From IMG/VR virus record IMGVR_UViG_3300037862_000257, positions 1 through 40,925 of that record: a stretch of DNA of 40,925 bases; one strand, 5' to 3'. The stretch is from a virus. Shown here piece by piece: positions 2,743 through 40,925 of this stretch; positions within the stretch are counted from its first letter, which is position 1; each line of letters starts with the position of its first letter. A program made the position numbers and the translations under genes. A model generated the notes under the pieces. It saw only the letters and a program-made list of their open reading frames with translations. It was not told where the DNA came from and searched no databases.

Positions 2743-2776
2743 GCCCGCTCACGTTTAACACGTCGGCGGGTTTTTT
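2743..2776 (+). terminator. intrinsic terminator or attenuator upstream of methyltransferase
   Basis: CCCGC (2744-2748) pairs with GCGGG (2766-2770). An inner ACGT (2751-2754) pairs with ACGT (2760-2763), and six T follow (2771-2776). It has the form of a rho-independent terminator. It ends only 22 bases before the ATG at 2799, so it either stops transcripts from the resolvase operon or acts as an attenuator in the leader of the methyltransferase operon. Confidence 0.65.
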
Positions 2777-2798
2777 GTTGCCCGAATTGCCCCTGTAC

Positions 2799-4277
2799 AT
2801 GCCCATGCCACAAGCCATCAAACTCAACATCGAATACCGCCAGGTCGATGCATTGATTCCGTACGCCAGAAATCCGCGCACGCACAACGCCGAGCAAATT
2901 GCCAAGATCGCGGCCAGCATCGTCGAGTACGGCTGGACAAACCCTATCCTTGCCGATGGCGAGAACGGTATCCTGGCGGGCCACGGCCGACTGGCGGCTG
3001 CGCGCAAGTTGGGGCTGACGGAGGTGCCCGTGATTGAACTGGGCCACTTGTCGCCCACGCAAAAGCGCGCCTATGTGATCTCCGACAACCGCTTGGCCCT
3101 GGATGCTGGCTGGGACGAAGACATGCTGGCACTGGAAATCGCTGAGTTAACGCAGGATGGTTTCGATCTGGCACTCACCGGCCTGGACGACTTGGAGATT
3201 GAGGCCTTGCAAAATCTTGATGGCGAGGCTGGCAGTGAGCAGTCACAGACTCAAGACGACAGCGATGCCCCTGTTGACGCTGGTGCGCAAGACGATGTCC
3301 CCCAGGCACCGGTCAATCCTGTGGCACGCGCCGGTGACGTTTGGGCGCTTGGTGAGCACCGACTGATTTGCGGCGATTCGGCCAACGCCAGAGTTGTATC
3401 CGAGCTGATGGACGGTGCGCTGGCCACGCTTTGTTTTACCTCGCCACCCTATGGCAACCAGCGGGATTACACCAGCGGGGGTATCCATGATTGGGACGCT
3501 CTGGTGAGCGGGGTATTTGGCAACGTGCCAATGGCCCCTGATGGCCAGGTGCTGGTCAACCTCGGATTGATCCACCGCGACAACGAGGTCGTCCCCTATT
3601 GGGATGGCTGGCTTGGCTGGATGCGAACGAAAGGATGGCGGCGCTTTGCTTGGTACGTGTGGGACCAGGGTCCTGGCATGCCGGGTGACTGGTCCGGCCG
3701 ACTGGCACCGAGCTTTGAATTCGTCTTTCACTTCAACCGCCAGAGTCGCAGGCCCAACAAGACCGTGCCCTGCAGGCATGCTGGCCAGGAGTCGCACCTG
3801 CGTGCCGACGGATCCTCGACTGCGATGCGCAGCAAGGAAGGCGAAGTGGGCGGCTGGGCGCACAAGGGTCAGCCCACGCAGGACAGCAAGATTCCAGATT
3901 CCATGATCCGCGTCATGCGTCACAAGGGAAAGATTGGTCAGGACATCGACCACCCAGCGGTATTCCCGGTGGCACTGCCCGAATTTGTGCTGGACGCCTA
4001 CTCGGACACTGGCGACATCGTGTTCGAACCGTTTTGTGGCAGTGGCACGATGATCCTGGCGGCCCAGAGGACCGGTCGTCTGTGCCGTGCCGTGGAAATC
4101 GCACCGGAGTATGTCGATGTGGCGGTCAAGCGCTTCCAACAGAACTTCCCCAGTGCACCGGTGACCTTGCTGGCGACGGGTCAGAGCTTTGCCGAAGTTG
4201 AAGCGGAACGCCTAGGGGTGCATCAACCCACATCAAGTCTTGAGGTTGAGTCTGCACAGCTGGAGACAACCGTATGA
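2799..4277 (+). CDS. ParB-domain / DNA methyltransferase fusion (TSPPY type)
   Basis: This 492-residue protein fuses an N-terminal ParB/Srx-like domain to a beta-class S-adenosylmethionine DNA methyltransferase. The ParB part spans about 10-130 and includes ILAGHGRLAAARKLG (58-72). The methyltransferase part has motif IV TSPPYG (214-219) before motif I VFEPFCGSGT (408-417), the beta-class order. TSPPY is typical of N4-cytosine enzymes, though base specificity cannot be fixed from sequence. An acidic, Gln-rich linker (about 141-172) joins the halves. I chose ATG 2799; ATG 2805 is possible, and the upstream TTG at 2775 lies at the terminator T-run. The stop overlaps the next start (ATGA). It probably modifies phage DNA, and the ParB domain may guide it or act as a nuclease-like or CTPase module. 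Confidence 0.85.
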   Translation: MPMPQAIKLNIEYRQVDALIPYARNPRTHNAEQIAKIAASIVEYGWTNPILADGENGILAGHGRLAAARKLGLTEVPVIELGHLSPTQKRAYVISDNRLALDAGWDEDMLALEIAELTQDGFDLALTGLDDLEIEALQNLDGEAGSEQSQTQDDSDAPVDAGAQDDVPQAPVNPVARAGDVWALGEHRLICGDSANARVVSELMDGALATLCFTSPPYGNQRDYTSGGIHDWDALVSGVFGNVPMAPDGQVLVNLGLIHRDNEVVPYWDGWLGWMRTKGWRRFAWYVWDQGPGMPGDWSGRLAPSFEFVFHFNRQSRRPNKTVPCRHAGQESHLRADGSSTAMRSKEGEVGGWAHKGQPTQDSKIPDSMIRVMRHKGKIGQDIDHPAVFPVALPEFVLDAYSDTGDIVFEPFCGSGTMILAAQRTGRLCRAVEIAPEYVDVAVKRFQQNFPSAPVTLLATGQSFAEVEAERLGVHQPTSSLEVESAQLETTV

Positions 4278-5563
4278 GCGCGTCATGGTTCGCCAACAAA
4301 ATCGAGCAGTGGCCAACCGCCAAGTTGCTGCCCTACGCCAGAAATGCCCGCACCCATTCGGACGCGCAGGTGGCACAGATTGCAGCCAGCATTGTGGAGT
4401 TTGGATTTACCAATCCGGTGCTTGCTGGCTCTGATGGCACCCTCGTCGCCGGGCATGGCCGCCTGGCAGCTGCTCACAAACTGGGCCTGGAACTTGTTCC
4501 GGTGGTCGTACTGGATCACCTGACCCCAACCCAGCGCCGTGCCCTGGTCATTGCCGACAACCGAATTGCTGAGAACGCCGGTTGGGACGAAGCCATGCTG
4601 CGGGTGGAACTCGATGCACTGCGCGATGATGATTTCGATCTGTCGCTCACCGGCTTTGACGTGGACGCACTGGCCGATCTGTTCGAAGGAGAGGACGGTG
4701 GCGCGTCAGGCCAAACGGATGACGACATGGCCCCCGAGGTGCTGGGTGCCGCGATCTCGCGCCCTGGCGACGTGTGGCTGCTTGGTGGCCACCGTGTGCT
4801 GTGTGGCGACTCGACCGATGCGGGTTGCTACGCCCAGCTACTCGGCGATGAGCAAGTCGACATGGTTTTCATGGACCCGCCCTACAACGTCGATTACGCC
4901 AACAGCGCCAAAGACAAGATGCGTGGCAAAGATCGCCCGATCCTCAACGACAACCTGGGCGCAGGGTTTTACGACTTTTTGCTGGCGGCGTTGATACCGA
5001 CCGTGACGCGCTGCGATGGTGCCATTTACATCGCCATGTCGTCCAGCGAATTGGACGTGCTGCAAAAGGCATTTCGAGATGCCGGTGGCAAGTGGTCGAC
5101 CTTTATCATCTGGGCCAAGAACACCTTCACCATGGGGCGCTCTGACTACCAGCGTCAGTACGAGCCCATCCTGTACGGCTGGGCCGAGGGTGGCAAACAC
5201 CACTGGTGTGGTGACCGCGACCAGAGTGATGTCTGGCAGATCAAAAAGCCCCACAAGAACGATTTGCACCCGACCATGAAGCCAGTGGAACTGGTGGAGC
5301 GTGCCATTCGCAACTCCAGCAAGCCCGGGGACACGGTGATGGATCCCTTTGGCGGTTCTGGCACCACCGTGATCGCAGCCGAGAAAACCCAGCGTCTGGC
5401 GCGCATGATTGAACTCGATCCGAGGTACGTGGACGTGATTGTTCGGCGTTGGCAGGACTGGACGGGCAAACAAGCTACCCGTGAGTCTGATGGCAAATCA
5501 TTCGACGGCTGTGCCGGAACAACTTTGGTGGCAGAGCCCCAAGCTGTGGAGACTGCACCGTGA
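4274..5563 (+). CDS. ParB-domain / DNA methyltransferase fusion (DPPY type)
   Basis: This 429-residue paralogue of the preceding gene has the same architecture. Its ParB/Srx-like domain (about 10-130) includes LVAGHGRLAAAHKLG (57-71). Its beta-class methyltransferase has motif IV VFMDPPYNVDY (198-208), a conserved HPTMKPVELVERAI segment, and motif I VMDPFGGSGT. DPPY is the usual N6-adenine form, unlike the TSPPY of the upstream copy, so the pair may place two different marks. It overlaps the upstream gene by ATGA and the downstream gene by GTGA, so the three are probably translationally coupled. The two ParB domains are much closer to each other than the two catalytic domains, consistent with duplication followed by exchange of the catalytic half. 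Confidence 0.87.
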   Translation: MSASWFANKIEQWPTAKLLPYARNARTHSDAQVAQIAASIVEFGFTNPVLAGSDGTLVAGHGRLAAAHKLGLELVPVVVLDHLTPTQRRALVIADNRIAENAGWDEAMLRVELDALRDDDFDLSLTGFDVDALADLFEGEDGGASGQTDDDMAPEVLGAAISRPGDVWLLGGHRVLCGDSTDAGCYAQLLGDEQVDMVFMDPPYNVDYANSAKDKMRGKDRPILNDNLGAGFYDFLLAALIPTVTRCDGAIYIAMSSSELDVLQKAFRDAGGKWSTFIIWAKNTFTMGRSDYQRQYEPILYGWAEGGKHHWCGDRDQSDVWQIKKPHKNDLHPTMKPVELVERAIRNSSKPGDTVMDPFGGSGTTVIAAEKTQRLARMIELDPRYVDVIVRRWQDWTGKQATRESDGKSFDGCAGTTLVAEPQAVETAP

Positions 5564-5805
5564 AGCAGTCCCGCTGGATGTCGTTGGTGGAGTCGATTGC
5601 CAACGTGGTGGTTGGCTACGGCGTGGCCGTGGCCACGCAAATGCTGGTGTTTCCGCTGTTTGGCTTGCATGCCAGCCTGAACCAGAACCTGCTGATGGGT
5701 CTGGTGTTCACCGGCGTGTCGCTGGTTCGCAGTTACTTCTTGCGCAGGGTGTTTGAGACCCTGCGCTTGCGTCAGGCGGCGAGTTCTTCGCAAATGTCGC
5801 AATGA
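5560..5805 (+). CDS. small membrane protein, DUF7220-like
   Basis: This 81-residue protein starts at GTG 5560, overlapping the methyltransferase stop as GTGA, which supports translational coupling. Two hydrophobic segments at about 14-35 and 43-60 predict an inner-membrane hairpin. A basic segment (LVRSYFLRRVFETLRLR) follows on the likely cytoplasmic side. It resembles the short DUF7220 phage proteins that I recall beside such methyltransferases; the function is unknown. Its last 34 bases overlap the 3' end of the opposite-strand gene at 5772-6149. Confidence 0.7.
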   Translation: MKQSRWMSLVESIANVVVGYGVAVATQMLVFPLFGLHASLNQNLLMGLVFTGVSLVRSYFLRRVFETLRLRQAASSSQMSQ

Positions 5806-6149
5806 ATCACAAACCCGGTGAGGTATGGCAGGCCCTTGGGGATTCCGTATTCCTTGCTCGTTTGTCGGCTGATGGTCCAGCCCATCCAACGTTGGGTGGC
5901 CTGTTTGATGGCGTCTTGCAGATTGGCACCCAAAAACAGTGCGTTGTTGACGTCGTCTGCAAAGTGGCGTCCATGCCGGCTATCCAGAAAAGTCTGGACC
6001 GACTCAAGCGATTGGCCGGTGGCATCTGCGACTGCAGTCATCGCCAAGGGCCAGGCTGACTGAGCCTTTTCGTTCATGGTGCCCCAAAAGCCCCATGACT
6101 CGTTGGTGGTGGTGGGCATGGTGGGGATGGCGACTGGGGCTTTGTTCAT
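5772..6149 (-). CDS. conserved accessory protein, 125 aa
   Basis: This 125-residue protein has no domain I can name. Recognisable blocks are SWGFWGTMNEKAQSAWPLAM, LDSRHGRHFADDV and KGLPYLTGFVIHC, and I recall similar proteins in Burkholderiales phages and plasmids. It ends in a CDIC motif (two Cys spaced by two) that could bind metal, but there is no second pair. The ATG at 6149 follows CCGGAGT in a good position for ribosome binding. An in-frame ATG at 6218 would add 23 residues encoded by the 41-bp element; I reject it because that element also precedes unrelated genes. It is the last gene of the minus-strand cluster. Confidence 0.7.
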   Translation of the reverse strand: MNKAPVAIPTMPTTTNESWGFWGTMNEKAQSAWPLAMTAVADATGQSLESVQTFLDSRHGRHFADDVNNALFLGANLQDAIKQATQRWMGWTISRQTSKEYGIPKGLPYLTGFVIHCDICEELAA

Positions 6150-6174: not shown

Positions 6175-6215
6175 GCGACACCCGTAGTAACGCGCTGTTT
6201 GATAAGGAAGCCAAG
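6175..6215 (-). promoter_or_regulatory. 41-bp cluster element, copy 1
   Basis: Read on the minus strand this is CTTGGCTT, nine variable bases, ACAGCGCGTT, then ACTACGGGTGTCGC. It ends 25 bases before the start codon at 6149. Copies 2 and 3 have the same architecture with exactly nine bases between the two blocks. TTGGCT could serve as a -35 and TTACTA as a degenerate -10 with 18 bases between them, giving a leader of about 30 bases. Promoter function is inferred from position and conservation. Confidence 0.6.
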
Positions 6216-6245: not shown

Positions 6246-6617
6246 TCAGCCCAGTCTGGCCACGTAGCGGGCGTAGTCGCTACCTTCGGGGTTGATGTAG
6301 AGGTAGGGGCGACCCGGTGCGCTGATCTCGACGCAGAGGTAGCCGCCATATGCGCCGCCGCCTTTGCCCTTGAGCCAGTCGCGCGACTTGTAAAGCGTGG
6401 CGGCGAAACCGTCAAACTCTGCAGGGCTCATCTCCCGGGTTTCGATGATGAAGACTTTTTGTTGTCCGTAGCCTCCCACTTCATTCAAATCGGCAGGCTT
6501 GCGGGCAAAGGGGAGTTGCACCCCGAGTTCGATCACTTCGATGGCCCCGCTGGGTAACTCAAGGGTGCGCGCAGTGCGTTCAATGTTGATGGTCATCGTC
6601 GTGTTCGTGTTCGTCAT
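6246..6617 (-). CDS. accessory protein, 123 aa, unknown function
   Basis: This 123-residue protein starts at the ATG with CAT at 6615-6617, preceded by ACAAGGAAC, a clear ribosome binding site. It reads as a soluble alpha/beta protein. The N-terminus is Thr/Asn-rich; a beta-rich part runs through LELPSGAIEVIELGVQLPFA and KVFIIETREM; a Gly/Lys stretch KGKGGGAYGGYLCVEI follows. It has no signal peptide, membrane helix or catalytic motif that I recognise. Its own copy of the 41-bp element lies 29 bases upstream, so it may be transcribed independently of the DUF3489 gene before it. Confidence 0.65.
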   Translation of the reverse strand: MTNTNTTMTINIERTARTLELPSGAIEVIELGVQLPFARKPADLNEVGGYGQQKVFIIETREMSPAEFDGFAATLYKSRDWLKGKGGGAYGGYLCVEISAPGRPYLYINPEGSDYARYVARLG

Positions 6618-6646: not shown

Positions 6647-6687
6647 GCGACACCTCTATGAACGCGCTGTTCCAACCAGAAGCCAAG
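6647..6687 (-). promoter_or_regulatory. 41-bp cluster element, copy 2
   Basis: Minus strand: CTTGGCTT, nine bases, ACAGCGCGTT, CATAGAGGTGTCGC. It ends 29 bases before the start codon at 6617. It differs from copy 1 mainly in the nine-base spacer and two bases after GCGTT. Confidence 0.6.
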
Positions 6688-6718
6688 CATTTTGGCATCT
6701 GTTTTGAATCATTTTTTG

Positions 6719-7288
6719 TTAGGCCACCCGGTAGGTACGCTCTCCACCCTGGGTTTTGTCTGAGGTGATGCTGAGCCCCAGTTTCTTTTTGAACGCTCCG
6801 GCAAAGGTGCCGCGCACGGTGTGTGCTTGCCAGCTGGTTGCCTCGCAGATTTGCGCAATGGTTGCGCCCTCGGGGCGTTTAAGCATGCTGATCACGGTGG
6901 CCTGCTTGCTGTTCTCGCGGGTGCGGGGCTTCTGCTCTGTGGCCACCACAGTCACTGTTGTTGTCGCTGTCGCCGCCGTTGCGGGTTCGACCTCTTGCGG
7001 TTGCGTCCAGGAGGCCTCGGCTGCGGCCACGTCGGCCTCGATGTCAGGGATTGGTGTGACAGGCGCAGCACCTGGCCGGGCGAAGCCAAGGGCATCGTAG
7101 CCCTCTGCTGCGACCATCCAGTCGTTGCCCGACGGGGTGATCAGTGCGCGGTTGATAAGCCCGTCGAGCACCTTCTTGCGCGCGCCACCCTTGACACTCT
7201 CGGGGAACCAGTCAATGCGCCCGTCGTTGTGGTCCAGCGCATGTTGCAGGACTTTGGTTTGGGTTGCGGTGAGTTGGGTGGTGGTCAT
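6719..7288 (-). CDS. DUF3489 domain protein
   Basis: This 189-residue protein starts at the ATG with CAT at 7286-7288. The C-terminal 65 residues match the DUF3489 helix-turn-helix-like family, with ENSKQATVISMLKRPEGATI, TSWQAHTVRGTFAG, a KKKLGL segment and a closing ERTYRVA. The N-terminal part (TQTKVLQHALDHNDGRIDWFPESVKGG, read as two adjacent blocks) looks like a second small helical domain. A Glu/Ala/Thr-rich linker (about 80-125) connects them. DUF3489 proteins are probably DNA-binding and common on mobile elements, so a regulatory role is plausible. It follows the 79-residue gene after 55 bases without its own element copy, so the two probably share a transcript. Confidence 0.8.
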   Translation of the reverse strand: MTTTQLTATQTKVLQHALDHNDGRIDWFPESVKGGARKKVLDGLINRALITPSGNDWMVAAEGYDALGFARPGAAPVTPIPDIEADVAAAEASWTQPQEVEPATAATATTTVTVVATEQKPRTRENSKQATVISMLKRPEGATIAQICEATSWQAHTVRGTFAGAFKKKLGLSITSDKTQGGERTYRVA

Positions 7289-7343: not shown

Positions 7344-7583
7344 TTAGTCTTCCCAGACTTGTGCGCCGTCCAGGGTGATCCAAAGGCGGGCGTCGTCGCA
7401 GGTGGCCATCTCGCGCACCGCCAGGCCTGTCTTGTGGTTGGTGCCAGCCTTGTGCGTGTAGCTGTAGGTTTTGCCGTCGTGCTCAATCATCAAGGGGCCG
7501 ACTTGGTCAAAGGCCACTTTGATCTGCATCTCGCCGCGTGTGCGGTGGTTGGTGTCTGTGACTTGGGCGTTGATGGTGTTCAT
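7344..7583 (-). CDS. accessory protein, 79 aa, unknown function
   Basis: This 79-residue soluble protein is the first gene of the minus-strand cluster. It is beta-rich and polar (IKVAFDQVGPLMIEHDGKTY, then HKAGTNHKTGLAVREM) and ends in the acidic WED. I recognise no family. The ATG at 7583 is the first possible start: the frame upstream is closed by a TGA directly before the element core. Copy 3 of the 41-bp element lies 22 bases upstream. Confidence 0.6.
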   Translation of the reverse strand: MNTINAQVTDTNHRTRGEMQIKVAFDQVGPLMIEHDGKTYSYTHKAGTNHKTGLAVREMATCDDARLWITLDGAQVWED

Positions 7584-7605: not shown

Positions 7606-7646
7606 GCGATGCCTCTAGTAACGCGCTGTCTGCTTGTAAAGCCAAG
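7606..7646 (-). promoter_or_regulatory. 41-bp cluster element, copy 3
   Basis: Minus strand: CTTGGCTT, nine bases, ACAGCGCGTT, ACTAGAGGCATCGC. It ends 22 bases before the start codon at 7583. It lies in the divergent space between this cluster and the terminase small subunit gene and probably drives the minus-strand cluster. An in-frame TGA directly before the core shows the element is not a translated N-terminal extension here. Confidence 0.6.
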
Positions 7647-23154: not shown

Positions 23155-23562
23155 ATGCAACTGAAGAACCTCTCCGATGAGGTGGCCCTGCTGCTGCCTG
23201 ACGATTTGCTGTGGAGCGATGAGCACGCATGGACGCCCGCTGTGGCGTCCGCGTCCTACCTCATCACCGGAGCCTTGTTGATCCAGTCCGCCACGCGGCA
23301 GGCCGGTCGCCCGATCACCCTGGTGGGTGCGCCCGACATGGCCTGGATCACCCGCGCCGCCGTCGAGCAACTGCGCGCCTGGGCGGCGATTGGGGTGAGC
23401 AACACCACGGGGCGGTTCGCGCTGACCTTCAAAGATGGCCGCTCGTTCACCGTGGCCTTCCGTCACGGCGACACGCCCATCGAATCCGAGCCGGTGCTGG
23501 GCATCCCGGCCCGCGCTGACACCGACTTCTATCGCCTGACCCTTCGATTCCTGGAGATCTGA
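23155..23562 (+). CDS. distal tail module protein, 135 aa
   Basis: This 135-residue protein opens the distal tail block after the tape measure. It is a mixed alpha/beta protein with VALLLPDDLLWSDEHAWTPA near the N-terminus, RPITLVGAPDMAWITRAAVE in the middle and a beta end (FYRLTLRFLEI). I recognise no Pfam family, but this size and position fit a small tail-tip or distal tail component. GC at third positions looks higher from here onward than in the tape measure gene. The next gene begins two bases after the stop. Confidence 0.65.
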   Translation: MQLKNLSDEVALLLPDDLLWSDEHAWTPAVASASYLITGALLIQSATRQAGRPITLVGAPDMAWITRAAVEQLRAWAAIGVSNTTGRFALTFKDGRSFTVAFRHGDTPIESEPVLGIPARADTDFYRLTLRFLEI

Positions 23563-32509: not shown

Positions 32510-32982
32510 TCGAGACCTTGCTCGGTGGTCTCCTGGGCGGGGCCTTCCGTCTTGCGCCTGAATTTCTCAAGTGGCTCGACCGCCAAGGCGAGCGTGGCCA
32601 CGAGCTGGCGATGCAGGACAAGGCGCTGGAGTTCGAGAAGCTGCGTGGCGCGCAGCGAATGGCTGAGATCGGCGCCAGTGCCGACGCGGCATGGAACGTC
32701 GGCGCCCTCGAGGCTCTGCGGGATTCGGTCGCTGCGCAAGGGCAGCGCTCGGGAGTGCGCTGGGCCGACGCGCTGTCCTGCAGCGTGCGCCCTGTGATCA
32801 CCTACTGGTTCATGGCGTTGTACTGCGCCGCGAAAACGGCGGCGTTCGTGGCGGCGGTCAGTGCTGGCGCTGGTTGGGGCACTGCGGTTTTGCACGCATG
32901 GACCGATGCCGATCAGGCGTTGTGGGCTGGGGTGCTGAACTTCTGGTTCCTGGGGCGCGTGTTCGACCGGGTGCGGTCGTGA
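32506..32982 (+). CDS. holin, 3TM type
   Basis: This 158-residue protein matches the holin_3 / 3TM-type group. The conserved N-terminus GLLGGAFRLAPEFLKWLDRQ is followed by a charged helix (about 25-90) and hydrophobic segments at about 95-122 (RPVITYWFMALYCAAKTAAF) and 137-151. Holins form membrane holes at a set time and let the endolysin out. The start overlaps the upstream stop (ATGA) and its own stop overlaps the endolysin ATG by one base, so the cassette is tightly coupled. Confidence 0.85.
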   Translation: MIETLLGGLLGGAFRLAPEFLKWLDRQGERGHELAMQDKALEFEKLRGAQRMAEIGASADAAWNVGALEALRDSVAAQGQRSGVRWADALSCSVRPVITYWFMALYCAAKTAAFVAAVSAGAGWGTAVLHAWTDADQALWAGVLNFWFLGRVFDRVRS

Positions 32983-33440
32983 TGGCAGTGCCGCAGGCGG
33001 CCATCGATCTCGCCAAGCGCTTTGAGGGCTTTCATCGGGTGCCGAGAGCCGATCCGGGACGCGCGCACCCGTACCTCTGTCCCGCAGGCTTCTGGACGAT
33101 CGGCTACGGCCACCTGTGTGATTCCAAGCACCCGCCGATCAACCAGACCGACGCCGAGCGCTACCTCGCGGATGACCTGCAGACGGCACTCAGTGCGACG
33201 CTGCGCTACTGCCCGGTCCTGGCCAGTGATACCGCCCGACTTGCCGCCATCGTGGACTTCACGTTCAACCTCGGTGCGGGGCGCCTTCAGACCTCGACCC
33301 TGCGCCGAAGGCTCGGCCAGCGTGACTGGCCGGGCGCGGCCAGCGAGTTGCGCCGGTGGGTCTATGGCGGCGGGAAAGTGCTGCCCGGTCTCGTCACGCG
33401 GCGCGAGGCCGAGGTCGCCTTGCTGCTTCGCAACGTCTGA
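32982..33440 (+). CDS. endolysin, GH24 lysozyme
   Basis: This 152-residue protein is a T4/P22-type muramidase that hydrolyses the peptidoglycan glycan strand. The catalytic Glu15 (KRFEGFHR), Asp24 and Thr39 (FWTIGYGH) fit the GH24 triad, with a longer stretch between Asp and Thr than in T4 lysozyme. The VDFTFNLGAGRLQTSTLRRR block and the ending VTRREAEVALLL are typical. No signal peptide or signal-anchor is seen, so export depends on the holin. I see no spanin pair after it. Confidence 0.93.
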   Translation: MAVPQAAIDLAKRFEGFHRVPRADPGRAHPYLCPAGFWTIGYGHLCDSKHPPINQTDAERYLADDLQTALSATLRYCPVLASDTARLAAIVDFTFNLGAGRLQTSTLRRRLGQRDWPGAASELRRWVYGGGKVLPGLVTRREAEVALLLRNV

Positions 33441-33460: not shown

Positions 33461-33490
33461 CTTGGCTTCAGCGCCGAACAGCGCGTTCAT
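33461..33490 (+). promoter_or_regulatory. cluster element, copy 4 (plus strand)
   Basis: Plus strand: CTTGGCTT, nine bases, ACAGCGCGTT, CAT. This equals the core of the three minus-strand copies, including the nine-base spacer; the downstream half (after CAT) has diverged. It lies 27 bases before ATG 33518. It is the only copy found outside the 6-7.6 kb cluster. Confidence 0.55.
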
Positions 33491-33517
33491 GTCATCCCCT
33501 GCCACGGAGAAATGCCG

Positions 33518-33808
33518 ATGACCAACAGATACAAGAAGGCCGTGATCGATGACGTCGTCTGTCATGGCATCGACGAGTCAGAAAAGGCCAACCTGCTCGA
33601 CCTGTTCGAGTACGCCATGAAGTCAGTTGCGACCACACTTGTTCGTGAGGCCTGCTTCGACACGAGCGACTTTGCGACGGCGAGGCAGCGCAACTGCGAG
33701 GGATTTCAGTTGACGCTGCAACGTCTGAGCGTCGACGGTCGGGATGCATGGCAAGGCCGCTTCAGCAGAGCCGACCAGCAACTCACCGTGGTTGCGTCTC
33801 TCGAATAG
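33518..33808 (+). CDS. small orphan protein, 96 aa, linked to the cluster element
   Basis: This 96-residue soluble protein has no recognised family. It has an N-terminal basic segment (TNRYKKAVIDDVVCHGID), a helix (ESEKANLLDLFEYAMKSVAT) and a beta end (RFSRADQQLTVVASLE). ATG 33518 has CGGAGA eight bases upstream; ATG 33446 would read through the regulatory element and lacks a ribosome binding site. It sits after the endolysin, where cargo genes are common. It ends eight bases before the stop of the opposing defence operon. Confidence 0.6.
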   Translation: MTNRYKKAVIDDVVCHGIDESEKANLLDLFEYAMKSVATTLVREACFDTSDFATARQRNCEGFQLTLQRLSVDGRDAWQGRFSRADQQLTVVASLE

Positions 33809-33816
33809 CCAGGCGC

Positions 33817-34758
33817 CTACTCGGCCTCTTTCGGCACGTCCCAGTCGGCCAGCCGTGCTTCGCCGGTCTGGTAGAACTGCTTCACCAGCTTCACGTACTC
33901 CAAGAAGTCTTTGTTCTCGGTGGCCAGCCGGTTGGCAGTATCCCAATCGATCTCGCCGCGCTCCCTGGCTGGGATCAAGACCTGACTTTCCGACGGGTTC
34001 TCGACATCGAGCTTGATGAGGCCGATGCCGTGAGCCGCGAACAGCATTCGCAGCTCCTTCAAAGTGTCCTGCCCCTCGATTTCGGCCGCCACCAGGTAGC
34101 CAAAGTTGGACCACGACGAGTTCGAGACGGACTGGAAAAAGCACTCGCGGACGTTTGACCGGTTGATGAGCAGCTTGACCTCGAACGACCACAGCTTGGT
34201 GCGCTTGTCCGAATACTGGTTGACGCAGTCCTTGACCTCTCGGTGCCAGTCGGCGCCCAGGTCCTCCATGCCAACCAGATCCGGATACAGCCAGCGGTTG
34301 CCGTGGGGTCCACGTTTGTTGGAAGAGCGCTTCTCATCGACGCGCTTCGAGTACACCCCGAACTCTGCCCACAGATAGCTGGCCAGCAAGGGGTACAGGC
34401 CATGTTCCCCGATCTTGGCTTCTTCTTTGCCAACCGGCGCTGTGACGCCAACGTTTTCCACTGCCGCGACTTCGGCACTGTCCGATTTTTCCGAGAAGTA
34501 GTACTTCCGAGGCCTACCCTCGGTCGTCTTGAGGCTCGGGTGCTTCTTCTGAAGGCGCGGACGTTGCGAGCCGATCTCGGCCACCAGTTGCTGCAACAGG
34601 TCTGCGTCGGTTTCCAGCGCCTGGCTGCTGGCCTTCTTGGCGTGACATTCTTCGGGGAACGTCGCGACGATCCACTCGGCAATCTGCCGCGCAGAGAATT
34701 TTTCTTCAGGGTGCGCGGTCAGGAAGTCGACAACCGATTTTCCAAGGTTAAGTGCCAC
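33817..34758 (-). CDS. COG2958-type protein, winged helix plus nuclease-like core
   Basis: This 313-residue protein resembles the COG2958 family. The N-terminal 90 residues look like a HARE/winged-helix domain (NLGKSVVDFLTAHPEEKFSA, then a TTEGRPRKYYF wing). The C-terminal part has a PD-(D/E)XK pattern: YPDLVG with Asp160, FEVK with Glu193 and Lys195, and FFQSVSNSS with Gln209, followed by a strand and helices. I infer a DNA-cleaving or DNA-binding protein working with the McrBC pair upstream, 24 bases away. It is the last gene of the operon. Many homologues are uncharacterised, so its role is open. Confidence 0.75.
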   Translation of the reverse strand: MALNLGKSVVDFLTAHPEEKFSARQIAEWIVATFPEECHAKKASSQALETDADLLQQLVAEIGSQRPRLQKKHPSLKTTEGRPRKYYFSEKSDSAEVAAVENVGVTAPVGKEEAKIGEHGLYPLLASYLWAEFGVYSKRVDEKRSSNKRGPHGNRWLYPDLVGMEDLGADWHREVKDCVNQYSDKRTKLWSFEVKLLINRSNVRECFFQSVSNSSWSNFGYLVAAEIEGQDTLKELRMLFAAHGIGLIKLDVENPSESQVLIPARERGEIDWDTANRLATENKDFLEYVKLVKQFYQTGEARLADWDVPKEAE

Positions 34759-34782
34759 TTCTGTGTTCCCCTTTCGTTGCTC

Positions 34783-36120
34783 TCACGCCGGTACCGCATT
34801 GAAGTCTTCGGCCTGCGATGCATTGCTGTTCTCGCCGATGAAGACCGACCGCAGCTGCAGGGAAGCCGGCAACTTCAGGCGTCGCTCCTTGAGGCAAAAC
34901 GGCAGCACCCACAGGCGCATCCCGACGGCCTTCGGAAAGTCAAAGACGGGCAACGGTTCTGTGAAGGCGTCCGTCTTTGGGTAGATCAATACGATGTCCC
35001 CGGCGCCATCTAGGTAGTGGTGACCGTAGGCGTACAGCTGATAGAAGTCGGCCTGACTGAGCTGGTACTTCTCGCGTCCGTTTTTCTTCGCCGCATCCAG
35101 CAGCTTCCACTTTGTATCCAGGACCAAACGCGTGTCTTGCTTCTGCTTTACCAACAGGTCCGGCTTCAAGCGGAACCATCGCTGCTCATCGTGAGCAACG
35201 AGGTGCTGGCTGCTTGCCTGTGCTTTCAAAACAAAGTCACCTCGCAACTGTTTCGCCAGGTGCTTCTCAACATAGGCCTCGAATACCGCCTCCATCGGAA
35301 ACAGCAGCGAGGGCGCATGATGCTTCCCCATCCCAGAAATCGGGCTGAGCCCCTGCAGGATCAGCTTCGCCCAGTCCAGTGCCGGCTCGTAGTAACCCAT
35401 TCCTCGATCCAGCCTGATCCGTTGAATGTCGAGGGCTAAATCGGCTGAAAACGGGACATCCGCAAAGACGAAGCTGAGTTCGCGTGCGACGCGCTGGTTC
35501 TCTTGCGATCGGCACATGGTGAGCACATGGCGGAGCGCCGTGTGAAGCAGTCGGTTCTCCGCGCGATCCTGAGAAAACTCGTCATGCTCAGTAAAGAATC
35601 GATCTGGTCTCACCAAATTCTGTGTGATCTGCCTTGCCACCAGCAACCTGCCCCGCAGAGCAAAGAGGCTGTCTTGTCGCGCGACATAGTCACTGCGTAG
35701 GCCGCGCTTGACCAGTGAGCTGACGGCCAACAGGAACTGCTGGATGAACACCTCCAGCAACGGCATGCGCTCAGCGACCAAGTCCGCGTTGGCTGTTCTG
35801 ATGTGCCGAAACCCGGCCAGGCACTTCAACATCTCGATGAGGAGTGCGCGTGCCTCGTCAGGTGATGTGTGCCTTCCGGTCTTGGGCAGCACTTCGATCT
35901 GAAACCCACACGGCGCACGAATCACGCCGACGTAGCTGGTGACCTGAATGGCCCGCTGGCCGTTCAACTGGGTCAGCTTAAGCCAGCCAGGCGTGTCACC
36001 ATCACTTCTCAAGCACTGAGTCTCCAGCCAGGCGAAGACGCGCCTGGGCACCACGAGACCGACCGCTCCGGCCTTTGCTTCGACGACCTTGTCGAACTCA
36101 AAGATCGTCAGGGAATTCAT
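34783..36120 (-). CDS. mcrC: McrC-type nuclease subunit
   Basis: This 445-residue protein is the nuclease partner of McrB in modification-dependent restriction. The N-terminal part (about 1-130) is the McrB-interacting region. The C-terminal PD-(D/E)XK core shows FRLKPDLLVK with Asp321 and LVLDTKWK with Asp335 and Lys337, the DTK form usual in McrC. It overlaps mcrB by four bases (ATGA on the minus strand). It should be inactive without the McrB GTPase. Confidence 0.9.
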   Translation of the reverse strand: MNSLTIFEFDKVVEAKAGAVGLVVPRRVFAWLETQCLRSDGDTPGWLKLTQLNGQRAIQVTSYVGVIRAPCGFQIEVLPKTGRHTSPDEARALLIEMLKCLAGFRHIRTANADLVAERMPLLEVFIQQFLLAVSSLVKRGLRSDYVARQDSLFALRGRLLVARQITQNLVRPDRFFTEHDEFSQDRAENRLLHTALRHVLTMCRSQENQRVARELSFVFADVPFSADLALDIQRIRLDRGMGYYEPALDWAKLILQGLSPISGMGKHHAPSLLFPMEAVFEAYVEKHLAKQLRGDFVLKAQASSQHLVAHDEQRWFRLKPDLLVKQKQDTRLVLDTKWKLLDAAKKNGREKYQLSQADFYQLYAYGHHYLDGAGDIVLIYPKTDAFTEPLPVFDFPKAVGMRLWVLPFCLKERRLKLPASLQLRSVFIGENSNASQAEDFNAVPA

Positions 36121-38111
36121 CCGGCGGTCACGGCAGGCTTAGCCGTATAGATGCCGACGTAGGCGTCCGGCTGATCAAGCGCGGCCGCGTTCAACTGATA
36201 GCGAGAACGAATCGCGTACTGATCCAGCTCGTGCTCACGGCCGAAGAGCGCCAGCAGGTCTTCCTCGCGGCCGACTTCATGCACGAATTGGTGGTCCTGC
36301 TTGGCCTTCTGGTTGTCGCCCAGCACCAGTCGAATCTTCTGCCAGTCCTCGAAGAAGTATTCCTCCAGGAGCGGGATGATTTTGTTCTTGAACACGGTCT
36401 TCAGCTCGCTGAAACGATCCGCATCTTTCAGGTCTTTGATGCGCGTGAAGTAGGCGTGCCCCACCGTGTGGTCGCGGTCGTACAGAGCCTCGATCCGCTT
36501 GTTCAGCATGGTCAGCATCTGCTCGATGTTGATGTCCACGCCGTTGTGAGAGACGATGGTGCCCGCCAGAACCGAGGGCTTGGGCATCGACTCAATGAAT
36601 TCGAAGCGACGCCGAAGCGCGGTATCTACCAGTGCCAACGAGCGGTCCGCTGTGTTCATCGTCCCGATCACATCAACGTTCGAAGGCACGCTGAAGCTCT
36701 CGGCGGAATACGGCAGCGTCACAGTGACGGGATACTTCGCATCTTCGCGCTTGTCGACTTCGACGAGTGTGATGAGCTCGCCGAAGATCTTGCTGATGTT
36801 GCCGCGATTGATCTCATCGATCACCATCGCGTACTGGCGCGACGGGTTCTTGCGCGCCCGATCGCACAGCCGCAAGAACGCACCTGGCTTGATCTCGTAG
36901 CGCACCTCGCCGTTCGAACTGGCTGCTATGTCGCTGTCGACCGCACGCTTCTTGCCTCGCTTGGTAACGACGGGGCGCAGTCCCTCGACGAACTCCTCGT
37001 ACCCATAGGACTGGTGGAAGGTGACGAACTCGTAGCGCTCGCCGTACTCTGCGTCGGTGTATTCGGTAGCGAGTAGACCTTGCAACTCGAATGTCTTGCC
37101 GGTGCCGGGCGGGCCGTAGTAAATGACATTCCTTGGCGGCTTGTCGCTCTTGGGCTCGTCTTCAATGTCGTAGTCGTCGGGCCAGTAGCCGTTGCGTCCA
37201 GAGCGCGCCCCGAGCTTGGCTGGCCAAGTGCCTTCATCCTTGTCGGCCGCCTCGAAAAGCTGGACAAGCTCGCTCGTGAGATCGGTTGGCTCAAGCGCGT
37301 CCAAGCCGGCGAAGGCGGCCCAACTGACCCGGATGCCATCCTTGCGCAGGAACAGCCATCCGACCGGACCGCCTTTCACCACGCCCTTTTCCTTGCGTCC
37401 AAAGCGCAGCTGGCTGTTTGTGGCCCGGGTGAACCACCAGTCCAGCCCCATTTCGCTCACTGCACGCGCCAGTCGGCCGAACAGCTCCGTCGTTGTGCTG
37501 GTCCACAGCGGCTGTCGTTCGACGAAGTCCTCGTGCCCCTGGAAGTGGTGCAGCAAAGTCTCTTGATCTTGACCGGCCGAAAGTCCCAACTGATCCGCCA
37601 GATCGTCGTAGCTGATCTTGAACTTGCTGATGGCGTCCACGCTCCAGTCAACCAGTGCGGTGAAATCGAGCGCGAGCCCCTCGGCAGCCGACTTGATCGC
37701 AACGATGGGCGAGGATGTGAGTGGTCCTCGGATCTGTTCGTACTTCTTCCGCAAGGCCGGGTCGTTGACCTTGATATCCACGAGGTCGATCTTGACGACA
37801 AACCCAAGCTCGGCGTCGATGCCCACGGTGTAGGCCAAGCCATCAGGCGCGTTCTGCGTCGGGTAGATCCGGGCCCAGTTGTAGTGGGTGAACTTCTTCT
37901 GCCACTGGTCGGTCGGCTTCCGGACGGTCTTGGTCTTTCCGTCCTTGAACAGTTGCTGTTGCAGGGCCTCGGCCCAATGCTTGGTGACGTCGTAGGCGTG
38001 CCCAAGCTCCTCATAGACGCGTTGCTGCTCCGGGTTGGTCTTGTCGTAGACCGTCCCTTTCCATTTGTTCAGCAGCTTGAAATGGTCGTTGTTGAAATAG
38101 TTCTGTGCCAT
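36117..38111 (-). CDS. mcrB: McrB-type GTPase subunit with unusual N-terminus
   Basis: This 664-residue protein belongs to the AAA+ McrB GTPases that translocate DNA and activate McrC. It has Walker A GPPGTGKT (333-340), Walker B AMVIDEIN (428-435), the McrB signature MNTADRS (485-491) and an arginine-rich RRRFEF (500-505). The N-terminal 320 residues, which in this family read the modified base or target, do not look like the E. coli McrB DNA-binding domain or the common MrcB_N domain. They contain GIDAELGFVVKIDLVDIKV and WLFLRKDGIRVSWAAFAGL. The target modification therefore cannot be predicted. It starts four bases after the metallopeptidase gene and overlaps mcrC. Confidence 0.9.
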   Translation of the reverse strand: MAQNYFNNDHFKLLNKWKGTVYDKTNPEQQRVYEELGHAYDVTKHWAEALQQQLFKDGKTKTVRKPTDQWQKKFTHYNWARIYPTQNAPDGLAYTVGIDAELGFVVKIDLVDIKVNDPALRKKYEQIRGPLTSSPIVAIKSAAEGLALDFTALVDWSVDAISKFKISYDDLADQLGLSAGQDQETLLHHFQGHEDFVERQPLWTSTTTELFGRLARAVSEMGLDWWFTRATNSQLRFGRKEKGVVKGGPVGWLFLRKDGIRVSWAAFAGLDALEPTDLTSELVQLFEAADKDEGTWPAKLGARSGRNGYWPDDYDIEDEPKSDKPPRNVIYYGPPGTGKTFELQGLLATEYTDAEYGERYEFVTFHQSYGYEEFVEGLRPVVTKRGKKRAVDSDIAASSNGEVRYEIKPGAFLRLCDRARKNPSRQYAMVIDEINRGNISKIFGELITLVEVDKREDAKYPVTVTLPYSAESFSVPSNVDVIGTMNTADRSLALVDTALRRRFEFIESMPKPSVLAGTIVSHNGVDINIEQMLTMLNKRIEALYDRDHTVGHAYFTRIKDLKDADRFSELKTVFKNKIIPLLEEYFFEDWQKIRLVLGDNQKAKQDHQFVHEVGREEDLLALFGREHELDQYAIRSRYQLNAAALDQPDAYVGIYTAKPAVTAG

Positions 38112-38115
38112 CGTC

Positions 38116-38811
38116 TCAAATCCCTTCTACGTCCATGCCGTGCTCGGCCAGCCAGATCTTTCGCCGCTCGAAATCAGGCAGTGCGCGTTCGACCCGCTGC
38201 CAGAACTCAGGTGTGTGATGCGGTTGATGCAGATGTGCCAGCTCATGTACGACCACGTACTCGGCAATGCGTGGCGGTAACAGGATGGTCTTCCAGTGAA
38301 AGTACAGCCAGTCGCCTTTGCCGCATGAGCCCCAGCGGTAGCCCAGGTCCTGCACCTTCAGGCCCACCGGGGTGACTTCCATACGCGCCACGTAGTCCTG
38401 TACCTTGTCCCACAGCCAAACCTTGGCCCGGGCGCTGTACCACTGAATCAAATGGCTTCGGGCGGTCTCGACCAGGTCGCGGCGCAACATGAAGCGGCCA
38501 TTCAGCAGTTTCAAGGCGGTGTCCTGTTCATCGACCAATCGCAGCCGATAGCTCCGCCCCAGGTACAGAAAGCCCTCGCCATCCACGTAGCTCTTAGTCG
38601 GCACTGCCTTTTGCAGGCGATCCTTCTCAGCCAGCTTGGTGTAGATCCAGAAGCGTTTTTCCAGGACGAACTGGCGCAGACGTTCCTCTTCGACATCAGG
38701 CGGTGCCGACAGCACCAACTCACCGCTGCGATCCACGGTGATCTGCAGCGTCCTGCGTCGACTGCTGGGCTTCAGCTCGAAGGAGAGGTCGTCTACGGTC
38801 AGCACGCTCAT
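38116..38811 (-). CDS. M48 / YgjP-type zinc metallopeptidase
   Basis: This 231-residue protein has the SprT/YgjP-like pattern: an N-terminal beta domain (SRRRTLQITVDRSGELVLSA), the RWGSC block (159-163), the zinc helix VVHELAHLHQ with His189, Glu190 and His193, and a third-ligand region HHTPEFWQRV (198-207). Such genes are regularly found inside Type I restriction operons, where their role is unknown; cleavage of stalled protein-DNA complexes is one idea. The start overlaps the hsdR stop by four bases, showing co-translation. Confidence 0.87.
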   Translation of the reverse strand: MSVLTVDDLSFELKPSSRRRTLQITVDRSGELVLSAPPDVEEERLRQFVLEKRFWIYTKLAEKDRLQKAVPTKSYVDGEGFLYLGRSYRLRLVDEQDTALKLLNGRFMLRRDLVETARSHLIQWYSARAKVWLWDKVQDYVARMEVTPVGLKVQDLGYRWGSCGKGDWLYFHWKTILLPPRIAEYVVVHELAHLHQPHHTPEFWQRVERALPDFERRKIWLAEHGMDVEGI

Positions 38812-40925
38812 CCCTTGGTCAACCTCTCATGGTTGGCGCGGGCTAACTCGAGCAGGCGATCTTTCAGGGCCGACACATCCCCGGGCGCGATCAGGCGGGA
38901 TGTGCGCAGCGTTCTGAAGATGCGTGCCCCTAGCGCATCTTGTGCTGGCCGCTTGTGTGGCTCCCAGAACGTGTCGGTCAGCTCACCGGCAATCATGTCG
39001 ACCAGCTCTACGGTTAGGTCCCGGATCTTCAGCAACTGCTCGTCATTCGGGCGCTCGGTGCCCACCACTGCCTCAAGCAGCATCCGCAGGAATGGCACGT
39101 AGTGCTCTGGCATGTCGGGTAGACCTGCGTCATCACTTGAGGCACCGGCGCGCATGTCGCTGACGATCTTCTGCAGCGCTTCGATCAGGTCATCCCACTG
39201 GTCCGCCAGCGTTTTCAGGATCTCGTTCAGTCGCTCGCTGAGCTTCCGAAAAAGCACCGGATCCTCATCCAGATGCTTGCGGATATGGGAGCGGATGGCA
39301 TGTTCCATCTCAGACGCCTTGGCGCGATCGTTCGCTTGGCGCGACAGATGCGTGTCGAATTCCGCGTCGGTTAGTGCAATCGGCGGAATCTTGGGATCGA
39401 CTCCTAGCGAAATCACATGGTCGTCGATCAACTTGCGGACCTTGGCGCCTACATCCTTGCCAAGTACCGGTGTGTCCTTGTAGCGATTGCGGGCCCGGGC
39501 ATAGATGTACGAGAGGGTCTTGGCGTCCTTGGAGAAGGGCAAGCCCTCCGGGCGAGGCAACACCATGTCCAGCGAACCCAGGAACTGCTTGAGCTTGACG
39601 GTGAACTCGGCGCGCAGCCGTTCGTCCGCTAGAACTTCAACGCAGGTCTCCACGTCATCCAGTGACTCGATATCGCGGCTGCGGAACAGATCCATCACAC
39701 GCAGATGCCGATCGCGCAGCGCAGGCACTTCGTCCTTCAGGCTCTGCAGGGCACCCTGAATGTCTTCGTCGGAGTAAGCCGCCAGAGCTTCTTTCAGGTG
39801 TTGGGCGACGCCGTAGTAGTCCACCACGATGCCGCAGCGCTTGCCGAAACCAGTGCGGTTTACACGCGCAATCGCTTGCAACAACTCAGCCTCGCGGATC
39901 GGACGGTCGAGGTACATCACGCCTTCAATCGGCGCATCGAAGCCTGTCAACAGCATCGACTTCACTACCAGAAAAGCCAGCGGGTCGGTCTTCTCCGGCT
40001 TGGTGTGAAACAGCGGCTTCTTGAAGCGCTTGATGCGCGTCTCGTTGGCAGAAGACTCCGTCCACTGCTTCCACGCCGGATCGTCGTTGTTGCTGCCGGA
40101 GATCACCGCCGCGAACTCGATCTTCTGCAGGGTGTCGCGGTAGCGCCAGGCCTGCACGATGGCCTGCACCTTGGGCGGTCGCTGGCACAGGGCTTCGTCA
40201 TCCAACGCCTTGTCATCGGGCGGCAGCGCATCGGCCTCGGCTAGTAGTTCGGCGCGTGCGGCTTCGAATGCCGCCACGTAACGTACCGCCGCCAAACGGC
40301 TGTAGGCCACCACCTGCGCTTTGTAGCCATTGGGCAGGATGTTGGTCACAAAGTGGCGCAGCATGTCACGCGCCTTGTCCGCAATCAGCAGTGGGGCGTC
40401 AAAGATCGGGCCCTTGGTGGCGTATTTTTGCTTGATTGCTTCAAGTTCTTCGGCACTTCGATCGCGGAACAGGTCCTCGAACAACTCGTCCAGGCTGGCC
40501 CCGTCCTTCACTGCGCCTTGCGCGGTACGGCCCTCGTACAGCACAGGCACGGTAGCGCCGTCCGCCTCGGCCTCTTTGATCGTGTAGCTGTCGATGAACT
40601 CGCCGAAGATCTCGTGGGTGCGCTTCTTGTCACCCATGATGATCGGCGTGCCAGTGAAGCCGATGCGCGCGCAGTTCGGCAGCCCGGCCAGCAGGTTGGC
40701 GTGCAAGTCACCTGCCTGGGTTCGGTGCGCCTCGTCGACGAGCACGAGAATGGTCTCGTCCTCGTTCAACACCTCGAAGGTCTTCGCCGCAGGCTTGGCC
40801 AAATAGGCTGTTGCAGGCTCTTTCACCCCCATCTGCCCCTCTTGCCAGCTTTCCGGGATGTCGTCCTCAGTCAGGCCTGGCTCACCGGCGGCATCCGGGT
40901 CACGGTACTTCTGAATCGTGGCGAA
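38808..40925 (-). CDS. hsdR: Type I restriction enzyme R subunit, N-terminal part outside window
   Basis: The frame is open to the right edge, and 705 residues of a longer protein are visible. Superfamily 2 helicase motifs present are FATIQK at the very edge, LVDEAHRT (motif II), GFTGTPI (motif III), LLTGFDAP (motif V) and QAIARVNR (motif VI). A long helical C-terminal domain follows (about 430-700), which docks to the HsdM/HsdS methyltransferase. The N-terminal nuclease core and Walker A lie outside the window. hsdM and hsdS are expected further to the right. The gene leads the minus-strand defence operon. Confidence 0.92.
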   Translation of the reverse strand, partial: FATIQKYRDPDAAGEPGLTEDDIPESWQEGQMGVKEPATAYLAKPAAKTFEVLNEDETILVLVDEAHRTQAGDLHANLLAGLPNCARIGFTGTPIIMGDKKRTHEIFGEFIDSYTIKEAEADGATVPVLYEGRTAQGAVKDGASLDELFEDLFRDRSAEELEAIKQKYATKGPIFDAPLLIADKARDMLRHFVTNILPNGYKAQVVAYSRLAAVRYVAAFEAARAELLAEADALPPDDKALDDEALCQRPPKVQAIVQAWRYRDTLQKIEFAAVISGSNNDDPAWKQWTESSANETRIKRFKKPLFHTKPEKTDPLAFLVVKSMLLTGFDAPIEGVMYLDRPIREAELLQAIARVNRTGFGKRCGIVVDYYGVAQHLKEALAAYSDEDIQGALQSLKDEVPALRDRHLRVMDLFRSRDIESLDDVETCVEVLADERLRAEFTVKLKQFLGSLDMVLPRPEGLPFSKDAKTLSYIYARARNRYKDTPVLGKDVGAKVRKLIDDHVISLGVDPKIPPIALTDAEFDTHLSRQANDRAKASEMEHAIRSHIRKHLDEDPVLFRKLSERLNEILKTLADQWDDLIEALQKIVSDMRAGASSDDAGLPDMPEHYVPFLRMLLEAVVGTERPNDEQLLKIRDLTVELVDMIAGELTDTFWEPHKRPAQDALGARIFRTLRTSRLIAPGDVSALKDRLLELARANHERLTKG

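Follow-up and report, generated by a model that had tools for sequence, protein, structure and literature searches.

The CII promoters of phage lambda (pRE, pI and paQ) carry TTGC direct repeats (TTGC-N6-TTGC) around the −35 region together with a normal −10 element. The C1 operators of phage P1 and the stoperators of phage L5 are repressor sites that lack symmetry and are scattered along the phage genome, and P1 C1 binds over many promoters at once. The σ70 promoter consists of TTGACA and TATAAT, separated by 16–18 bp, and an A at −11 is needed. In cluster K mycobacteriophages, start-associated sequences have been described under the names SAS and ESAS (PMC3203893, PMC12699233). The defence hotspots of P2 and P4 prophages consist of a slot in which defence systems are interchanged, bordered by phage genes that stay fixed (PMC9122126).

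Here, we analysed a 30 bp element in a 40 925 nt stretch of viral DNA (hereafter, the window), which represents part of the genome of a lambda-like temperate phage, and compared it with these systems.

Element copies and gene organization in the window

The original prediction placed a fourth copy of the element on the plus strand, 27 bases ahead of the gene for a 96-residue protein, and both points were confirmed. The bipartite core of copy 4 (CTTGGCTTCAGCGCCGAACAGCGCGTTCAT) is an exact match, identical in its core to the 6658–6687 copy on the minus strand, and four matches were detected in the window, compared with none in 100 dinucleotide shuffles. The ATG of the 96-aa gene lies 27 nt past the element, with a Shine–Dalgarno-like sequence, ACGGAGAAA, ahead of it. 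The cluster at 5.8–7.6 kb to which the prediction linked this gene holds four small genes but three elements, the DUF3489 gene having no element of its own and lying second behind the 79-aa gene (Table 1).

The gene order of the window is RuvC-like resolvase, DUF6362, two ParB–DNA methyltransferases, DUF7220, the minus-strand cluster, and then the terminase onward. The two neighbouring ParB-domain DNA methyltransferase genes (2775–5563) are kept in nearly all records of the phage family. The ORF holding the endolysin is a relative of a lysozyme-type gene found in AcaML1 and 23 other records. A 5 bp hairpin (6682–6696) ends in CTTGGC of the 6658–6687 element copy, and no family was matched in an Rfam search of the window.

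Table 1. Element copies and associated genes in the window
Feature	Position	Strand	Remarks
125-aa accessory gene, phrog_8020, downstream family 1	5772–6149	-	
Element copy	6186–6215	-	GTTACT variant, 2 mismatches; heads 125-aa gene
123-aa accessory gene, downstream family 3	6246–6617	-	
Element copy	6658–6687	-	Exact core; heads 123-aa gene
DUF3489 protein gene, candidate regulator	6719–7288	-	PF11994, 3e-32; model with two winged-helix-like domains
79-aa accessory gene, downstream family 8	7344–7583	-	
Element copy	7617–7646	-	GTTACT variant, 2 mismatches; first of leftward array; heads 79-aa and DUF3489 genes
ORF holding endolysin, upstream of copy 4	32691–33440	+	True start probably further in
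Element copy 4	33461–33490	+	Exact match; −35-like TTGGCT 33462–33467, −10-like GTTCAT 33485–33490
96-aa gene	33518–33808	+	Alpha/beta fold predicted, pLDDT 85
313-aa gene, convergent with 96-aa gene	33817–34758	-	Conserved defence-hotspot border
McrC, variable defence cargo	34783–36120	-	PF10117
McrB-like AAA+ subunit	36117–38111	-	AAA_5 and Type II restriction models
YgjP-like metallopeptidase	38116–38811	-	PF01863
Type I restriction R subunit	38808–40832	-	N-terminal part missing

Sequence and promoter-like layout of the element

The element has the form CTTGGCTT-N9-ACAGCGCGTTCAT with rigid spacing. The spacer was 9 nt in 564 of the 565 pairings with an exact left block and in 472 of the 476 pairings with a left block at no more than one mismatch, where every locus had been retrieved through one N9 match and many additional copies were free to vary. 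None of 468 occurrences of ACAGCGCGTT lacked CTTGGCTT 9 nt upstream. Among 115 inexact copies, CTTG was invariant, and the opening A and C of the right block varied. The T at −7, at the end of GTTCAT or GTTACT, was 100% conserved and lies outside the viral search pattern.

These positions give a promoter-like layout, with TTG at −35, a 17 bp spacer and the invariant T at −7. In the profile balanced over downstream families, phased A-rich blocks stand upstream at intervals of 10–11 bp, at approximately −42, −52 and −62 from the inferred start, where the alpha subunits of RNA polymerase bind. In the same profile, the inferred initiator has a pyrimidine at −1 in 98% of cases. The −35/−10 geometry, the initiator and the place upstream of gene starts are those of promoters in general, with a purine at +1 in only 74%. 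The region of the inferred +1 of copy 4 is CCCC and does not fit the pyrimidine/purine start, and its start is uncertain within 33494–33501. The start codon mostly lies 36–39 nt after GTT, and 28–33 nt after it in the 96-aa family. The element is not a σ70 consensus promoter: it has TTGGCT, 17 bp and GTTCAT or GTTACT, without A at −11, and a search for a σ70 consensus promoter near the element found none. Sites for σ54, heat-shock factors, FliA and LexA misfit in spacing or bases in a by-eye comparison.

Distribution among phages and hosts

Based on a scan with CTTGGCTT-N9-ACAGCGCGTT, we identified at least 118 stretches in IMG/VR and at least 119 in GTDB genomes; in total, the element is present in more than 230 viral and prophage contig stretches. 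Its range extends over Beta- and Gammaproteobacteria, Nitrospira and the Acidithiobacillus phage AcaML1, and record titles name Burkholderiales, Rhodocyclales, Lysobacterales, Pseudomonas indica, Halotalea and Nitrospira defluvii among the hosts. Each of the 33 near-complete records chosen from those with the element carried two to nine copies at no more than three mismatches, and the reversed pattern matched none or once per record in the same set. Nearly all close copies in host genomes were located in prophages or other mobile loci. BLAST of the element against PLSDB plasmids gave weak partial matches only, and a match in Bacillus safensis (L185), which falls within a coding sequence, probably arose by chance.

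Single elements were also observed in other loci whose stretches hold no DUF3489 (L126, L142, L190, L201 and L241), that of L126 having ParB-like and recombinase genes nearby. Other mobile loci contain DUF2924/serine-recombinase operons preceded by the element, again with no DUF3489 in the stretch (L342, L343 and L347), and some of these adjoin restriction or XRE/ImmA genes.

Genes downstream of the element

The first genes after 640 copies fell into 26 families with at least two members, plus singletons, some of these being gene-calling errors. The downstream families, approximately 25 of them multi-member, are mutually unrelated and include DUF3489, phrog_8020-like proteins, a 65-aa protein, the family of the window gene at 6246, DUF2924 and the 96-aa family. 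The element has three settings in the phage family. It heads the operon of DUF2924 (first gene) and a serine integrase at one end of the phage; it heads each gene or small operon of the leftward accessory array, which is flanked by the methyltransferases on one side and the terminase on the other; and it precedes the 96-aa gene that follows the endolysin. Among 34 records, DUF2924/serine recombinase was found in 24, with the element before all located DUF2924 copies, and all located 65-aa, 96-aa, 89-aa and 6246-type copies likewise have it (some split matches were counted). Most DUF3489 copies have the element, and those without it include second genes that follow a gene with an element, which is the arrangement in the window. 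Across the main families, nearly every located copy has the element, and the few that do not are mostly second genes. At the sequence level, the proposed regulon linking the 96-residue gene with the small-gene cluster is strongly supported, and it would be far larger than proposed, extending over hundreds of phages and including the integrase operon.

The 96-aa gene family at a defence hotspot

A profile search blind to the element returned 52 viral loci of the 96-aa family. The element was present at no more than two mismatches in 44 loci and as a decayed copy with three to five mismatches in the remaining eight, a five-mismatch match within approximately 120 nt being expected in about 0.2% of random stretches, as inferred from control counts. 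The expectation that this family always carries the element was thus borne out in the protein search, with a recognizable copy at all 52 loci; its absence from homologues or from close phage relatives, proposed beforehand as a refutation, was not encountered, and both keep it. The 96-aa protein is well conserved across the family. It gave no match in Pfam, PHROG, PADLOC or NCBIfam, and its predicted fold gave no significant match among PDB folds. The suggestion that it could be an anti-defence or exclusion factor found no support in these searches.

The convergent 313-aa gene follows the 96-aa gene in 46 of the 48 loci with enough sequence, and had no match in Pfam, PADLOC or NCBIfam. Behind it lie interchangeable defence genes (loci L382–L433 and window 33518–40832), including McrBC, Type I and Type III restriction, PD-T7-3, a CBASS cyclase with phospholipase, a DUF262-type protein and a caspase. 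The earlier remark that the 96-residue gene abuts a restriction operon is therefore right and general. With its conserved anchors and swappable defence systems, the locus is a phage-borne variable defence hotspot, of which the 96-aa gene is a border, outside the interchangeable cargo.

Hairpins at array junctions

The complement of CTTGGCTT is present shortly before many copies, giving hairpins of the form AAGCCAAGC..GCTTGGCTT, mostly where a co-directional element-bearing gene lies upstream (for example, G014 at 23169 and L221 at 4159). Stems of at least 8 were detected at 44% of internal junctions versus 6% in shuffles, and at 3.5% of first copies versus 5.8% in shuffles, these counts not being of independent events, as junctions are common to related phages. 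The hairpin was present at 43 of 66 junctions of DUF3489 after the 65-aa gene and at 22 of 33 of the phrog_8020 type after DUF3489, and absent from the 65-aa gene when first (0 of 38) and from the 96-aa gene (0 of 19). The stems have no U-tract. We read these hairpins as ending the previous transcript by some form of termination, with the −35 block of the next element supplying the 3′ arm.

A different element in another clade

Several DUF3489 genes of other proteobacteria are preceded by CTKGATA-N13-ATGGCYNYAT, a sequence of 30–31 nt located 34–52 nt from the ATG, and have no copy of the 30 bp element. The loci with this sequence are a small sample (L363, L366, L367, L372, L376, L379, L381, L441, L442 and L444). 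In some of the same genomes, further copies precede genes that we call DUF2924-like from reading the translation (L441 and L444) or from a similar sequence (L442). The sequence is rare in viral contigs, where its matches are chance-like. That both gene types again share an element, but another one, is the pattern expected of a regulon whose recognition factor changes. Upstream of the DUF3489 genes at L352, L353, L355, L357 and L365, we observed a G+C-rich hairpin followed by a CTTGG..GTAGAAG..GCCGC-like sequence, perhaps a third version of the element.

Interpretation of the element

From its conservation and rigid spacing, its position, the hairpins, the genes that it precedes and the parallel in another clade, we infer that the element is probably a dedicated promoter, or a promoter fused to the binding site of its regulator, of a phage-wide regulon whose genes would be co-expressed. 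RNA polymerase would contact TTGGCT at −35 and the conserved ACAGCGCGTTCAT from −19 to −7, and transcription would begin approximately 7 nt downstream of the element, leaving a short leader with a normal Shine–Dalgarno sequence. At internal junctions, the −35 block would also be the 3′ arm of the hairpin ending the previous gene, and each cassette would be its own transcription unit because this block completes that terminating hairpin. A factor that enables or silences such a non-consensus promoter would most likely have its gene on the phage or mobile element itself.

The conservation of the element amounts to approximately 40 bits, far above that of most bacterial promoters, and it could for this reason be a binding site for something else. 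The leading alternative, which we consider possible but clearly less probable than a promoter, is an operator: a phage repressor, DUF3489, would act on an asymmetric site placed over many weak promoters, contact both blocks, and control its own gene. The extreme conservation of both halves and the rigid spacing are consistent with such a site. DUF3489, our candidate for the recognizing factor, is encoded in 32 of the 34 records with the element, one of them AcaML1, in which DUF6362 was not found, and also in solitary non-phage mobile loci, close to the element. Its model shows two winged-helix-like domains, and the fold matches were mostly winged-helix (wHTH) regulators, none of them significant. 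Among 301 Burkholderiaceae genomes, 30 carry DUF3489, 35 the element and 24 both, and three of the six other DUF3489 carriers have a variant of the element. Against the operator, the element precedes some DUF2924/integrase loci in genomes that encode no DUF3489 (G058, G115, G131 and G307), and the association is confounded, core phage genes being equally conserved. DUF3489 is also not a sufficient predictor, many DUF3489 lineages being without the element. The operator and promoter readings overlap, since the factor could activate or repress.

Two other factors were considered and rejected. DUF6362, a possible sigma-4-like HTH protein, is present in 30 of 34 records, but was not found in element-bearing AcaML1; the XRE/ImmA pair that adjoins the element of the integrase operon has an XRE family that was found in only 10 records.

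A broader and tentative proposal is that a widespread class of temperate phages and related mobile elements carries its own transcription system, in which a dedicated promoter class, read only with a phage-encoded factor (DUF3489 or another), would switch the integrase, cargo and hotspot gene together, the promoter sequence having changed in step with the factor in another clade.

An RNA-level signal, namely a 5′ leader of transcripts from distant promoters that acts in translation, as an antiterminator or as a small RNA, appears improbable. In its favour, a start codon always follows the element within a narrow range of distances, and the leader past it is partly conserved; however, copies stand before solitary units that have no co-directional gene directly upstream (the integrase operon, and the first array gene beside the divergent terminase gene), the hairpin pattern implies that the previous transcript ends at the junction, the A-blocks upstream resemble those of promoters, and the Rfam search gave no match. 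A recombination site for cassette swapping, comparable to integron attC or dif modules, is still harder to credit: the element is asymmetric, in one orientation per array and between interchangeable small genes, but it keeps a fixed start-codon distance in promoter-like surroundings, also heads both the core operon of the integrase and the solitary 96-aa gene, and has a variable 9 nt centre and no linked recombinase to act on it. Relics of a recent duplication of one cassette, suggested by the several copies per phage, are contradicted by the approximately 25 unrelated downstream families, the strongly varied spacer and the conservation across host phyla, and can practically be dismissed.

If the element is a promoter, its completion of the previous gene's hairpin would explain how cassettes are added without disturbing their neighbours. 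Scanning for this tag yields a list of accessory genes, most of them without known function, in a widespread phage family. Integration, cargo and a defence slot would thereby belong to a single regulon that can be tested.

Comparison with known systems

Like SAS/ESAS, the element is an asymmetric repeat, mostly in one orientation, located upstream of the start codons of unrelated phage genes and conserved with the gene family. SAS (GGGATAGGAGCCC), however, directly adjoins the start codon, and ESAS consists of a 17 bp inverted repeat, whereas the element lies 27–45 nt upstream, combines promoter geometry with a rigid bipartite form, and belongs to proteobacterial phages. Its sequence and position therefore place it outside SAS/ESAS.

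The lambda CII promoters resemble it as dispersed promoters with one signature that co-control the integrase and other lysogeny genes, and an integrase is likewise among the genes behind the element. In contrast, TTGC-N6-TTGC at −35 is absent from the element profile, and the copies are many more and mostly on cargo genes. The P1 C1 operators and L5 stoperators share the asymmetry and the dispersal over the phage genome; the element differs in having promoter geometry itself and a fixed start-codon distance, and its repressor is only a candidate (DUF3489).

The closest individual phage, AcaML1 (JX507079), shows the same gene order, four elements, and McrBC behind the lysozyme. Its elements lie in its own minus-strand cluster, with one before DUF2924/recombinase, and are not in its annotation table. 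It differs in that DUF6362 was not found and no 96-aa gene is annotated behind the lysozyme. As a cultured phage, AcaML1 offers a test system for the question of what reads the proposed promoter.

Finally, the hotspot behind copy 4 shares with those of P2 and P4 the fixed flanks around a swappable defence slot, but belongs to another phage family, and its anchors are the endolysin and 96-aa gene on one side and the convergent 313-aa gene on the other.
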